From contig NZ_BBYR01000030.1 in the NCBI RefSeq assembly GCF_001293525.1, positions 124,001 through 188,000 on the forward strand: a DNA stretch of 64,000 bases. Reading direction: 5' to 3'. Positions 30,199 through 35,544 of this stretch are shown in pieces (position 1 is the first letter of the stretch; every line of letters starts with the position of its first letter). Under the pieces are notes generated by a model. That model did not search any database. It had not been told where the DNA came from and saw only the letters and a list, made by a program, of their open reading frames with translations. The position numbers and the translations under genes are program-made. The DNA is from Pseudideonella sakaiensis. Its GTDB lineage: Bacteria > Pseudomonadota > Gammaproteobacteria > Burkholderiales > Burkholderiaceae_C.

Positions 30199-31773
30199 AT
30201 GTTCGCTTCCCTCAAGATCACCACCCGGCTGCGCCTGACGCTGGCCCTGCTGGCGCTGCTCTCCGTCGCGATGGCGGCGCTGGCGGCCTGGGAGATGGGC
30301 GTGATGCGCGCCTCCACCCGCGAGATCGCCACCCATTGGCTGCCGACCGTCGAGACGATCAACGCGATCAACACCGGCACCTCCGACCTGCGCATCAAGG
30401 AGCTGCGCCACGTGATGGCGGTGGACGAGCGGCAGCGCGCCGTGGTGCGTGCGGAGTCCGAGGCCGTGATGGCGGCAACGAGGCAGCACCTGGCCGACTA
30501 CCGGGCGCGCGTCGACAGCGCCGCCGAGCGCGCGCTGCTGCAGCAGTTCGAGGAGGCCTGGGGCGGCTACCTGCGCGTCCACGCACAGATGCTCGGCGCG
30601 GGGCCGGGCGGGGTGTCCGCCGCGCTGCTGGACGACGGCAAGCGGCAGCACGATGTCGCCAGCGCGCTGCTGGAGCGGCTGATCGCGCTGAACCGCGACG
30701 CCAGCCAGGCCGAGGTGCGGACCGCCGAGCAAGCCTTCGCGCTCGCTGCCCGCAGCATCGGGATCGGCGTGCTGATCGCGCTGCTCGTGGCGGTCCTCGC
30801 CGGTGAATGGCTGGTGCGATCGATCGGCCGGCCGCTGGCCCAGGCCGTGGCCACCGCCGACCGCGTGGCCGCCGGCGACTTCACCGGCCACGTCGAGGTG
30901 CGGGGCCAGGACGAGGCAGCGCAGCTGCTGCGCGCGCTGTCGCGCATGCAGGCCGCGCTGGCGCAGACGGTGCTCGCCGTGCGCCGCAACGCCGAGGGCG
31001 TGGCCACCGCCAGCACGCAGATCGCGCAGGGCAACCTGGACCTCAGCCAGCGCACCGAGGAGCAGGCCAGCGCCTTGCAGCAGACCGCGGCGACGATGGA
31101 GCAGCTGGGCACCACCGTGCGCGGCAACGCGGACAGCGCGCGGCTGGCGAACCAGCTGGCGAAGCGCGCGGCCGACGTGGCCGCCGCGGGCGGCCAGGTG
31201 GTCGGCGAGGTCGTGACCACCATGCACGGTATCCACGATGCCGGCCGGCGCATCGGCGACATCATCGGCGTGATCGACGGCATTGCCTTCCAGACCAACA
31301 TCCTGGCGCTGAACGCCGCGGTCGAGGCGGCGCGTGCCGGCAGCCAGGGACGCGGCTTCGCCGTGGTCGCCACCGAGGTGCGGGCGCTGGCGCAACGCAG
31401 TGCGCAGGCCGCCAGGGAGATCAAGGCCCTGGTCGGCGGCAACCTCGAGCAGGTGGCGCACGGCAGCGTCCTCGTCGACCGGGCAGGCCGCACGATGGCG
31501 GAGATCGTCGGCTCGGTGGGGCGTGTCAGCGACCTGGTCGCCGAGATCACCGCGGCCACCGTCGAACAGGGCAGCGGCATCTCCCAGGTTGGCGACGCGG
31601 TGAACCAGATGGACCAGGTCACGCAGCAGAACGCGGCGCTGGTGGAGGAGAGCGCGGCGGCGGCCGAGAGCCTGCGCGGGCAGGCGCAGAACCTGGTGCG
31701 CGCGGTCGCGGCCTTCCGGCTGGCCGCGGATCCGGCGGAGGCGCCCGCGGTGGCGCAGCCCGCGGCGGCCTGA
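30199..31773 (+). CDS. Methyl-accepting chemotaxis protein
   Basis: A 524-residue chemoreceptor. AGGAG lies seven bases before ATG 30199. A first membrane span (about 11-31) precedes a periplasmic four-helix-bundle ligand domain; the second span is at about 190-210 ([20 protein letters not shown]), then HAMP and the signalling domain. The hairpin tip [27 protein letters not shown]-type block is intact ([20 protein letters not shown]). The Ala/Pro C-terminal tail has no CheR-binding pentapeptide. It should control CheA from the cell pole; the ligand is unknown. Confidence 0.96.
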
Positions 31774-31802: not shown

Positions 31803-32846
31803 TCAGCGCGACAACGGCAGGAGCTCGATGTCGCAGCGCCCCGCGCGGCGCGTGTTCAGGCCCACGCGCAGCGGCAGCAGCGCCTCGATCACCTGGGCCT
31901 GCGCGCGCAGTGCGCCGGTGGCCTCGGTGGTGCTGAAGGCCGCGCGCTGGCGGCGCCGCGCCACGGCCACCGCCAGCACCGGCAGCCACAGCGCGGCGCC
32001 CTGCGGCCCGAGCGCGCCGCTGCCGCCCAGGTAGCTGCGCACGTCGGCCGCGACGCGCCGCGCCACGTGCTCCGCACGCACGCCCTTCTCGCCGCTGCAG
32101 CCGATGACCTCGGTGACGTGCTCGTGCACCAGCACCACGGACAGGGCATTGCCCGGCCCCTCGTCCGGCGGCAGCACCGGCACGCGCATGCGCTGGGCCG
32201 GCCAGTGCAGCAGCTGGGCCAGCGTCGCCAGCTCGCGCTCGGCGACGTGCGGCGGCAGGGCCGGCGCGAGGCACTCGGCCCAGGCATCGCGCGGGCTGCC
32301 GCGCGCCGGCAGGTCGAAGGGCACCAGGCCGCCGGGCGGTGGCTGCAGCTCGATCTCCACCGTGCCGCTGCCCGACGCAGCGAAGCCGTGCCGGTGCACG
32401 CGCAGCTCGACGCGCGCGCCGGCGCGCCGCAGCAGCGGGCCCAGGCTGCGCTCGAGCGCCGCCACCGGCGCGGCACCGGGCAGGTGCGTGCCGCCGCGCA
32501 GCAGCAGCCGGCACGGGCCGTCGCCCGCGGCGAGCGCCGGCAGCACCGTCTGTGCGAGGTGGGCCACCGCGGCCGCCCCATGGCCTCCGAGCACGTGCTC
32601 GCGCGTGCCCGGCGTGCCGGGGACGAAGCGCAGCTCCGTCGACCCGGTGGCCATGCCTTCGGCCTCGCCGCCGCCGACCGCCAGCGCGGCGGCGATGCAG
32701 GCCAGCGGCCCGCGCTGCAGCCCGGGCGAGGGCGCCCGGGCGCGGATGTGCCGCAGGCGCAGGCTGCGGCCGCTGGCCAGTGACAGCGCCAGCGCGCAGC
32801 GCAGCCCATCGCCGCCGGTGTCGGCGGCCAGGTCCAGTTCGACCAT
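31803..32846 (-). CDS. RtcA-like RNA 3'-phosphate cyclase homologue without catalytic histidine
   Basis: A 347-residue protein, the size of RtcA (about 340). GGGGAGG lies seven bases before ATG 32846. RtcA landmarks are present: MVELDLAADTGGDGLRCALALS at the start, IRARAPSPGLQRG, GSTELRFVPG, QTVLPALAAGDGP, RGGTHLPGAAP, LPPHVAERELATLAQLL, DEGPGNALSVVLVHEHVTEVI and GEKGVRAEHVA. But the segment that holds the adenylylated histidine in E. coli RtcA (HLLTN before VVERFLPV) reads ALRAQ before VIEALLPL, placing Ala312 where His is expected, and the N-terminal GEGGGQ motif is altered. It is probably not a conventional cyclase. No rtcB or archease gene is nearby. Confidence 0.85.
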   Translation of the reverse strand: MVELDLAADTGGDGLRCALALSLASGRSLRLRHIRARAPSPGLQRGPLACIAAALAVGGGEAEGMATGSTELRFVPGTPGTREHVLGGHGAAAVAHLAQTVLPALAAGDGPCRLLLRGGTHLPGAAPVAALERSLGPLLRRAGARVELRVHRHGFAASGSGTVEIELQPPPGGLVPFDLPARGSPRDAWAECLAPALPPHVAERELATLAQLLHWPAQRMRVPVLPPDEGPGNALSVVLVHEHVTEVIGCSGEKGVRAEHVARRVAADVRSYLGGSGALGPQGAALWLPVLAVAVARRRQRAAFSTTEATGALRAQAQVIEALLPLRVGLNTRRAGRCDIELLPLSR

Positions 32847-33016
32847 GGCGATCCTCCCCACGGCGGGCGGGCCCGCCGATGCCCCAGGTCGGCGCGTCGC
32901 TGCGCCAGCCTGGGGAGCCTCGGCCGCACGCGGCGGCCACGGCCGCTGCAGTGCATGAATCCGACCAGGGGCGGGGCGGCCGCCGCGCCGAGGGCGCGGG
33001 CGGGGCCGCGCGGGGC

Positions 33017-33991
33017 TCAATCGCCGCGGGCAGGCTGGCCCTCGGCCAGTCGGGGCGCGGTCTTCACGCTCCAGACCATCGTGATCGCGAGGATCCCCAC
33101 CACCACGCCGAGCGACACCAGCACCGGGATCTTGATCACGTCGATCAGCAGCATCTTGGTGCCGATGAAGGCGAGGATGACCGCCAGGCCGTAGCTGAGC
33201 AGGTGGAACTTCGAGGCCACCGCGGCCAGCAGGAAATACATCGCGCGCAGGCCCAGGATCGCGAACACGTTGCTGGTGAGCACGATGAACGGATCGGTCG
33301 TGATCGCGAAGATCGCCGGGATCGAGTCGACCGCGAAGATCACGTCGGTCACGCCGACCAGCGCCACCACCATCAGCAGCGGCGTGGCGATGCGCTTGCC
33401 GTTCTCCACGGTGAAGAACTTCTCGCCATCGAAGCTGCGGCTCACCGGCATCACGCGGCGCAGCAGCTTCAGCGCGGGGTTGCTCTCCAGGTCGGGCTCC
33501 TGGCCGGCCGCCCACCACATCTTGATGCCGGTGAGCAGCAGGAAGGCGCCGAAGACGTAGAGCACCCAGTGGAACTCGGCGATCAGCCACGAGCCGAGCA
33601 GGATCATCACGGTGCGCAGCACGATCGCGCCGATGATGCCGATCATCAGCACCCGCTTCTGGAACTCGGTCGGCACCGCGAAGTAGGTGAAGATCATCAG
33701 GAACACGAAGATGTTGTCCACCGCCAGGCTCTTCTCGATGAGGTAGCCGGTGAGGAACTCCATGCTCTTGGTGTTGGCGACGGCGCTGCCGTGGTCCTGC
33801 GCGACGGCCCACCAGAACAGCCCGTTGAACGCGAAGCTCAGGACCACCCAGACGATGGACCAGTTCAGCGCCTCCTTCACGGAGACGCTGTGGGCGCCCT
33901 GCTTTTTCAGCACGACGAAGTCGACGAAGAGCGCGACCAGCACGGACGCGACGAAGAAAACCCAAAGCCAGGTCGGCGCGATGGAGTCCAA
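33017..33991 (-). CDS. TerC-family membrane transporter, probable manganese exporter
   Basis: A 324-residue inner-membrane protein with about nine spans. TTG 33991 is chosen: GGGAG lies seven bases upstream and the product then begins at the usual TerC N-terminus (DSIAPTWLWVFFVASVLVALFVDF). Hallmarks are KEALNWSIVWV, LTGYLIEKSLAVDNIFVFLMIF, GVTDVIFAVDSIPAIFAITTDPFIV and the acidic residues within them. TerC is named for tellurite resistance, but versions under a yybP-ykoY riboswitch (as here) export Mn2+ (Alx/MeeF group). Manganese homeostasis is thus the likely role. Confidence 0.93.
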   Translation of the reverse strand: MDSIAPTWLWVFFVASVLVALFVDFVVLKKQGAHSVSVKEALNWSIVWVVLSFAFNGLFWWAVAQDHGSAVANTKSMEFLTGYLIEKSLAVDNIFVFLMIFTYFAVPTEFQKRVLMIGIIGAIVLRTVMILLGSWLIAEFHWVLYVFGAFLLLTGIKMWWAAGQEPDLESNPALKLLRRVMPVSRSFDGEKFFTVENGKRIATPLLMVVALVGVTDVIFAVDSIPAIFAITTDPFIVLTSNVFAILGLRAMYFLLAAVASKFHLLSYGLAVILAFIGTKMLLIDVIKIPVLVSLGVVVGILAITMVWSVKTAPRLAEGQPARGD

Positions 33992-34024
33992 GGGACACTC
34001 CCGGGAAGAGGTTGAGGATCGCGC

Positions 34025-34145
34025 CGAAAGGTCTTGCCGCGGTGTCCTGGCGGACCCCTGCTGCACCCGGGCCATCGGCATTGCACCGACGTTCCGTATT
34101 GACGGGTGACGCGACCGCATTCCGCGGCCAGCTACTCCCCCTTCG
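34025..34145 (-). ncRNA. yybP-ykoY (manganese) riboswitch upstream of terC
   Basis: On the minus strand the leader contains AAGGGGGAGTAGC (start near 34143), CGTCAATACG (34104-34095) and GGCAAGACCTTT (about 34037-34026), the three conserved blocks of the yybP-ykoY element in the right order. CGAAGG at the 5' end can pair with CCTTTCG at the 3' end to close helix P1. The terC start is 33 bases downstream. The class senses Mn2+ and turns on exporters. Confidence 0.85.
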
Positions 34146-34248
34146 ACGGCGCGGATTCTCGCGGCGCCTCCCAATCCTTGGGAAGCGTGGGGATTTCGGG
34201 GCCGCGGCGCATTGGCGCCGCGCGCCGATTCGGTTAGGGTTGCGCCCC

Positions 34249-35544
34249 ATGCCGCGAGCCACCCCCGGTCCGACGCGGGCCATCGATCGGCGCCGCCCGG
34301 GTGCCCTGCTGCTGCTGTCGCTGCTGGCCGGCTGCGCCACGGGCGTCGCCAAGCCTCCGCCGTCGACGGTGAACCGGCCGCAGGTCGTCACGGCGCCGGC
34401 TGCACGCACGACCGTCGCCACGCGCCCGACGGCGCCGGCGGGCACGGCTCGCACCGCGCCGCCGCTGCGCACGCCGCCCGGCGCCGAGCCCGACGGGCCG
34501 CCGCTCGAGCCGCTGGGCGCCGAGCACCCGCCCGACCCGGAACCCTCGCTCGAGCCCATCCTGGCGGGCAACAGCCTGCCCTACCGTGTCGGTGGCCGTG
34601 CCTACGTGCCGCGCACCGAAGACCAGGCCTACCCGGAACGGGGCCTCGCGTCCTGGTACGGCCGGCGCTTCCACGGCCGCCGCACCGCCAGCGGCGAGCG
34701 CTACGACATGAACGCGCTGACGGCCGCGCACCCGACCCTGCCGCTGCCGAGCTATGCGCGGGTGCGCAACCCGGCCAACGGCCGCGAGGTGATCGTGCGC
34801 ATCAACGACCGCGGTCCCTTCCACCCCGGCCGCATCGTGGACCTGAGCCATGCCGCCGCGCGCAAGCTGGGCGTGCTGCACGGGCCCTCGGTGGTCGAAC
34901 TGGAGCGCATCACGCACGACGAGATCCGCACCGGGGCCTGGCGCCGCGCGCCGGCCGAGCCGCTGCCGCCGGGTGACGTGCTGCTCGCGGCAGCGCCGAC
35001 GGCCGCCGCGCCGCCCGCGGCCGCTGCGGCGGCGATAGCGCCCTTGGCGACTGCGGCGGGGACGACCGCTGCCGTGGCGGCCGCGACGCCGGGCGCCGAT
35101 GCCGCCGCCCCGGCGGCGTCCGGCGTCGAGGCCGCGGTCTGGCGGGTCGGGTCGGCGGCGTCCGCGGCGTCCACGCCCGCGGAGGCGACCTCGGACCTGC
35201 TGCTCCTGCCGGTGGTGACGCGCGCGGGCGATCGCGCCGCGCCGCTGGCGGAGCCCGCGGCCTCCTCGGCCACGGCACCCGTCGCGTCGGTCGACGAGGC
35301 AGCGATGGCCGCCGGCTTCTGGGTGCAGATCGGCGCCTTCCGCCTGCGCGACGGCGCCGAGTCCTTCCGGCGGCGCGTCCGTGCCGAGCAGGACTGGATC
35401 GCGCCGATGCTGCACCTGCAGCGCGATGCGGAGCTGCACCGCCTGCAGGCGGGCCCCTACGCCAGCCGCGACGAGGCCCAGGCCATCGCCCAGCGGCTGC
35501 GCGAGGCGCTGGCGCTGGTGCCGGTGGTCGTCGAGCGACGTTAG
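34249..35544 (+). CDS. rlpA: RlpA-type septal ring lytic transglycosylase with SPOR domain
   Basis: A 431-residue outer-membrane lipoprotein (lipobox LLAGC, Cys29). After a Pro/Thr-rich spacer, the double-psi beta-barrel RlpA domain covers about residues 120-225: GLASWYGRRFHGRRTASGERYDMNALTAAHP-type core (LASWYGRRFHGRRTASGE) and VRINDRGPFHPGRIVDLS. An Ala/Pro linker leads to a SPOR domain (about 355-430, FWVQIGAFRLRDGAESF, LQAGPYASRDEAQAIAQRL) that binds denuded glycan at the division septum. It cleaves such strands during cell separation. A TAGGGT at 34235-34240 could be its -10. It is divergent from terC. Confidence 0.93.
   Translation: MPRATPGPTRAIDRRRPGALLLLSLLAGCATGVAKPPPSTVNRPQVVTAPAARTTVATRPTAPAGTARTAPPLRTPPGAEPDGPPLEPLGAEHPPDPEPSLEPILAGNSLPYRVGGRAYVPRTEDQAYPERGLASWYGRRFHGRRTASGERYDMNALTAAHPTLPLPSYARVRNPANGREVIVRINDRGPFHPGRIVDLSHAAARKLGVLHGPSVVELERITHDEIRTGAWRRAPAEPLPPGDVLLAAAPTAAAPPAAAAAAIAPLATAAGTTAAVAAATPGADAAAPAASGVEAAVWRVGSAASAASTPAEATSDLLLLPVVTRAGDRAAPLAEPAASSATAPVASVDEAAMAAGFWVQIGAFRLRDGAESFRRRVRAEQDWIAPMLHLQRDAELHRLQAGPYASRDEAQAIAQRLREALALVPVVVERR

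Follow-up and report, generated by a model that had tools for sequence, protein, structure and literature searches.

The gene at positions 31803 to 32846 on the minus strand of the window (the whole stretch of 64,000 nucleotides of Pseudideonella sakaiensis DNA that was analysed) probably encodes a pseudo-cyclase which stems from a beta-proteobacterial RtcA, has lost its catalytic function, has diverged under protein-coding constraint and is still used, and a probability of about 0.6 is given to this reading. The gene codes for a putative pseudo-cyclase of 347 amino acids, and a strong Shine-Dalgarno sequence (GGGGAGG) is found 6 nt 5' of its ATG. An earlier preliminary description of the locus gave the right coordinates and omitted the strand. 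The pseudo-cyclase would retain both domains of the RTC fold together with the majority of the conserved arginines, and would perform neither adenylylation nor 2',3'-cyclic phosphate formation by the known route. The protein would be made and still used, most likely for the binding of RNA 3' ends or of a protein partner, which may be RtcB or a ribosome/RNA-processing factor; by analogy, a role in RNA-end binding, scaffolding or regulation can be proposed. This reading is supported by the alteration of the active-site blocks while the core and arginine positions stay, and a second active-site loss, in an RtcA copy of Rhizobacter lying outside an operon, also counts for it.

Loss of the active-site residues

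The RtcA-like protein was aligned with 51 canonical RtcAs, comprising E. coli RtcA (its sequence matches 3kgd in full) and 50 full-length sequences of the same order, giving an alignment of 52 sequences. A column was regarded as conserved when at least 95% identical in the canonical RtcAs, which yielded 90 columns; the positions are given in E. coli RtcA numbering, i.e. the alignment numbering plus 1. In the RtcA-like protein, 31 of these columns are changed and 59 are kept, whereas each of the 50 other canonical RtcAs retains at least 84 of about 90, and hence the change exceeds chance.

The nucleophile segment is ungapped, reading FSTTEATGALRAQAQVIEALLPLR in the RtcA-like protein and FTCTELTEHATTNIRVIEEFLPVR in the canonical RtcAs, and the assignment of Ala312 (codon at 31911 to 31913, minus strand) to the site of the histidine that is adenylylated in E. 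coli RtcA, His309, is therefore secure. The histidine to alanine change claimed in the preliminary description is thus confirmed against all 51 canonical RtcAs. Within residues 283-316 (31899 to 32000, minus strand) the LADQ block is gone, with GAALW in place of the HLADQW-type sequence, and H..TN has become A..AQ. The alteration of the N-terminal GEGGGQ motif, also claimed earlier, was likewise found, the motif being replaced by an ADTGGDG loop which is shorter by 1 residue; over residues 3-15 (32802 to 32840, minus strand) ELDLAADTGGDGL replaces ELDGSxGEGGGQIL.

The lost columns include E14, Q18, R43, K45, Q51, H52, G97, S98, N127, P131, L285, D287, Q288, H309, T312 and N313, where R43 is replaced by Ala, Q51 by Gly, H52 by Pro, D287 by Ala and Q288 by Leu. 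Among these, D287, Q288, P131 and N127 are presumed active-site residues on the basis of family conservation. The kept columns include R21, R40, R50, R157, R186, R208, Q104 and T105, and the GPGN motif and the fold glycines are also retained. The earlier statement that the frame is intact and the other blocks are well kept understated the change, as R43, Q51, H52, N127, P131, D287, Q288 and N313 are gone too. At the level of sequence, the alignment shows that the RtcA-like protein lacks the nucleophile and the majority of the conserved residues with a known or expected part in nucleotide binding.

An alignment error, with the true nucleophile elsewhere in an ordinary enzyme, is very improbable. 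Numbering RtcA residues and aligning them by hand easily goes wrong towards the C-terminus; however, the 52-sequence alignment is ungapped and anchored on both sides of Ala312, the last helix in the structural model begins at residue 311, and the GEGGGQ, RQH and LADQ motifs are also gone. An active enzyme using another nucleophile or catalyzing another reaction, such as an RNA-end hydrolase, is somewhat less far-fetched and still improbable. His89 and His96 have been gained in the former GSAGSCTL segment (now GHGAAAVAH) and the fold is predicted to be intact, which may favour such an enzyme, but with E14, Q18, R43, Q51, H52, P131, D287, Q288 and N313 gone the nucleotide activation would need rebuilding. 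Canonical relatives which bear His309 have the GGTH and RHGF histidines as well, and these therefore do not provide a replacement nucleophile. The preliminary suggestion of another nucleophile is unlikely to be right, since the losses extend to the conserved surroundings of the nucleotide site.

Ancestry, predicted fold and comparison with RCL1

The RTC domain (PF01137, E=2.5e-38) and its insert domain (PF05189, E=2.5e-10) together cover residues 10-328 of the RtcA-like protein, in agreement with the nearly full-length alignment to RNA 3'-phosphate cyclase described earlier. The best NCBIfam models are RtcA equivalogs, both scoring below their cut-offs (223.5 against 352 bits and 177.2 against 250.05 bits), and the identity to the best-matching RtcAs of the same order is 40-48%. 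By descent the RtcA-like protein belongs with bacterial RtcA rather than with RCL1, and its nearest relatives are the RtcAs of its own order; it is the product of the only RTC-family gene in the P. sakaiensis genome. It has in common with RtcA (PF01137; E. coli structures 1qmh, 3kgd and 3tut) the RTC fold with the insert domain over the full length. On the other hand, it differs from RtcA in the absence of the nucleophilic histidine, GEGGGQ, Q51-H52 and D287-Q288 and in its scores under the equivalog cut-offs, and its gene lies outside any rtcBA operon in a genome without RtcR.

An AlphaFold2 model built with an alignment of 43 relatives gave a pLDDT of 94 and a pTM of 0.92, and the two-domain RTC fold is confidently predicted to be kept; the input consisted of active relatives, and the model speaks for fold compatibility and not for activity. 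In the Foldseek comparison the top match was E. coli RtcA 1qmh (TMq 0.90), with 3tut (RtcA-ATP) at 0.89, followed by P. horikoshii RtcA at 0.86 and then by RCL1 chains at 0.75-0.83.

In eukaryotes the RTC family is known to include RCL1, a ribosome-biogenesis protein which works without catalysis. RCL1 (3pqv, 4clq, 7mq8) is like the RtcA-like protein in having the RTC fold without the cyclase residues. Maize RCL1 is without E14, R43, Q51, H52 and the nucleophilic histidine (PMC9048941), and all five residues (E14, R43, Q51, H52 and the H309 equivalent) are also gone in the RtcA-like protein. In the alignable N-terminal part, 15 of 20 losses are common with human RCL1 (Fisher p=0.033), and R21, R40, R157 and R208 are kept in both proteins. 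In contrast, the structural identity to RCL1 is 14-18%, and the RCL1 model TIGR03400 gives the RtcA-like protein 31.1 bits, far under its cut-off of 227.95. Bacteria are not known to have an SSU processome or Bms1. It may tentatively be speculated that the RtcA-like protein is an independently evolved bacterial counterpart of RCL1, i.e. a factor which binds RNA or protein in RNA repair or in ribosome/tRNA metabolism, without catalysis, and which has shed the same catalytic residues as the eukaryotic lineage, although the odds are against so specific a parallel.

Translated gene or decaying relic

The main rival to a pseudo-cyclase still in use is a relic, i.e. an orphaned RtcA copy, no longer functional and in decay, in which the very high GC content of the genome has kept the frame open; this is appreciably the less likely of the two. 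No close orthologue of the RtcA-like gene was found in 1996 genome draws (repeats included), a scan of genome contigs with the RtcA-like protein as the single query gave no match, and the gene is a singleton across the genome searches. A phage or plasmid origin was also considered and found no support, as the viral contigs contained no relative and the plasmid and phage matches were distant RtcAs only. Within the family, RtcA has a patchy distribution (58 of 400 genomes) and is dispensable. In another family genome (G138) a canonical RtcA gene, L044 (G138:C6:41172-41772), is split into overlapping pieces, an instance of rtcA decay within the family. The terminal branch of the RtcA-like protein is 2.2-2.8 changes per site, compared with a median of 0.16-0.33. 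The singleton status, the dispensability of RtcA with a broken copy in G138, the lack of rtcR, the long branch and the long open frame are all in favour of a relic. If the gene is such a relic, it would be a record of an accessory RNA-repair gene decaying after leaving its operon. A search of a collection of open-licence papers gave no report of a bacterial RtcA without catalytic activity.

The GC content of the gene at the three codon positions is 0.836, 0.583 and 0.957, and its codon usage fits the neighbouring genes. Its overall GC content is 79%, compared with 64-74% in the neighbouring genes and 74% in the window. Codon positions 1 and 2 share in the high GC (the protein is rich in Ala, Arg and Gly), which points to constraint having relaxed while mutation was GC-biased. 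The frame of the RtcA-like gene is open for 922 codons (31803 to 34571, minus strand), and crosses the TerC gene, which is read in a different frame; spurious open frames of such length occur often in the window. In a window of 74% GC, openness alone therefore says little. Against the pseudo-cyclase stand the long terminal branch and the 79% GC, both as expected under relaxed constraint, the cheapness of open frames at 74% GC, the absence of RtcR as a possible complex partner, and the lack of a close orthologue for a dN/dS comparison, which leaves purifying selection on the present protein unproven.

The gene has neither a stop nor a frameshift over 347 codons, while about one third of the conserved columns are changed. 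In a neutral simulation, four canonical genes were evolved until an equal share of the conserved columns was lost; indels were left out, and their inclusion would be stricter. Only 2-7% of the runs were free of stops (stops were gained in 93-98%), and the mean final GC3 was 0.76-0.79. The observed GC3 of 0.957 was reached in none of the runs, which started at a GC3 of 0.78-0.91, an argument presuming that the ancestral gene did not start far above this range. The rarity of stop-free runs and the unreached GC3 imply that most of the divergence of the RtcA-like gene probably took place while it was translated. These results, along with the structural core kept in the alignment and in the model, speak against a relic. 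With GC3 saturated, the NG86 estimate of dN/dS was judged uninformative. The preliminary description had held that selection maintains the fold without the known chemistry; this is supported in part, as a fold without the chemistry is upheld by the model, the conserved core and the neutral simulation, and selection on it would be the probable cause.

Genomic setting and the Rhizobacter second copies

A TerC-family membrane protein gene (33017 to 33991, minus strand) is the upstream neighbour of the RtcA-like gene on the same strand, with a gap of 170 bp, and a methyl-accepting chemotaxis protein gene (30199 to 31773, plus strand) is the convergent neighbour. Nothing points to a functional connection between the chemotaxis receptor and the RtcA-like gene, and PADLOC reported no defence family. 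In the closest genera as chosen by TerC (g62 and g83), no RtcA gene was found beside the TerC orthologue, and each of 5 searched g62 genomes is without any RtcA.

The earlier remark that no RtcB or RtcR gene lies nearby was also correct, as RtcB is on another contig and RtcR was not found anywhere in the P. sakaiensis genome. RtcB is present in one copy on contig C59 (L062:8119-9390, minus strand), with no RtcR or RtcA nearby, and it looks intact by inspection, the motifs VDIGCGM, GTGNHFIE, HSGSRG, NCHHNY and CSHGAGR being in place. These five motifs presumably hold the metal and guanylate residues. The rtc system of P. sakaiensis is thus broken up into an intact-looking RtcB standing alone and the RtcA-like gene on a separate contig. 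E. coli RtcA with catalytic mutations still joins the RtcRAB complex (PMC9650030). The fold is thus truly capable of interaction without catalysis, which makes non-catalytic roles plausible. With RtcR absent here, RtcB or RNA would be left as the candidate partners of the RtcA-like protein. A bacterium with an intact RtcB, an inactive RtcA and no RtcR would, if true, amount to a natural separation-of-function experiment; it raises the questions whether the RtcA fold serves for anything other than cyclisation and whether a conversion of the RCL1 type has taken place repeatedly.

Loss of the nucleophilic histidine was found in one other of about 190 RtcA sequences (156 plus a few more plus 28, with duplicates between the collections retained), namely L134 of Rhizobacter sp. 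Root1221, where His is replaced by Arg. In L134, Q51 has also changed to Gly and N127 to Thr, and the N-terminal motif reads GECGGQ. The expectation of a His to Ala change common to a clade in Burkholderiales was therefore not borne out; the change is a singleton in the searched genomes with one partly degenerate parallel. An RtcB or NTase gene is present in the flanks (mostly about 9 kb) of 79 of 80 family-like loci, and L134 is the sole exception. L134 is like the RtcA-like protein in lacking the histidine, Q51 and a nearby RtcB or NTase gene. It is unlike the RtcA-like protein in being degenerate only in part and in having an orthologous second copy with an intact active site, L201, in a second Rhizobacter genome.

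A quick tree favoured the RtcA-like protein and L134 together, whereas a careful tree places the RtcA-like protein elsewhere; the AU test did not reject a joint clade of common origin (p=0.26). A single inactive clade of the two is not claimed, given their separation in the careful tree and the intact L201. A rule that RtcAs outside an operon are always inactive was also rejected, as many RtcAs with no RtcB or NTase gene in flanks of about 1.5 kb keep the site, and thus operon loss alone does not equal activity loss.

The second Rhizobacter copies, which have no operon, are located at L209:10168-11271 (plus strand) and L210:10901-11998 (plus strand; the same gene as L134). Unlike the situation in P. 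sakaiensis, they lie near an EF-G gene, and the Root1221 genome has a canonical RtcA besides L134. Both copies are about 1.3-2 kb downstream of the EF-G gene.
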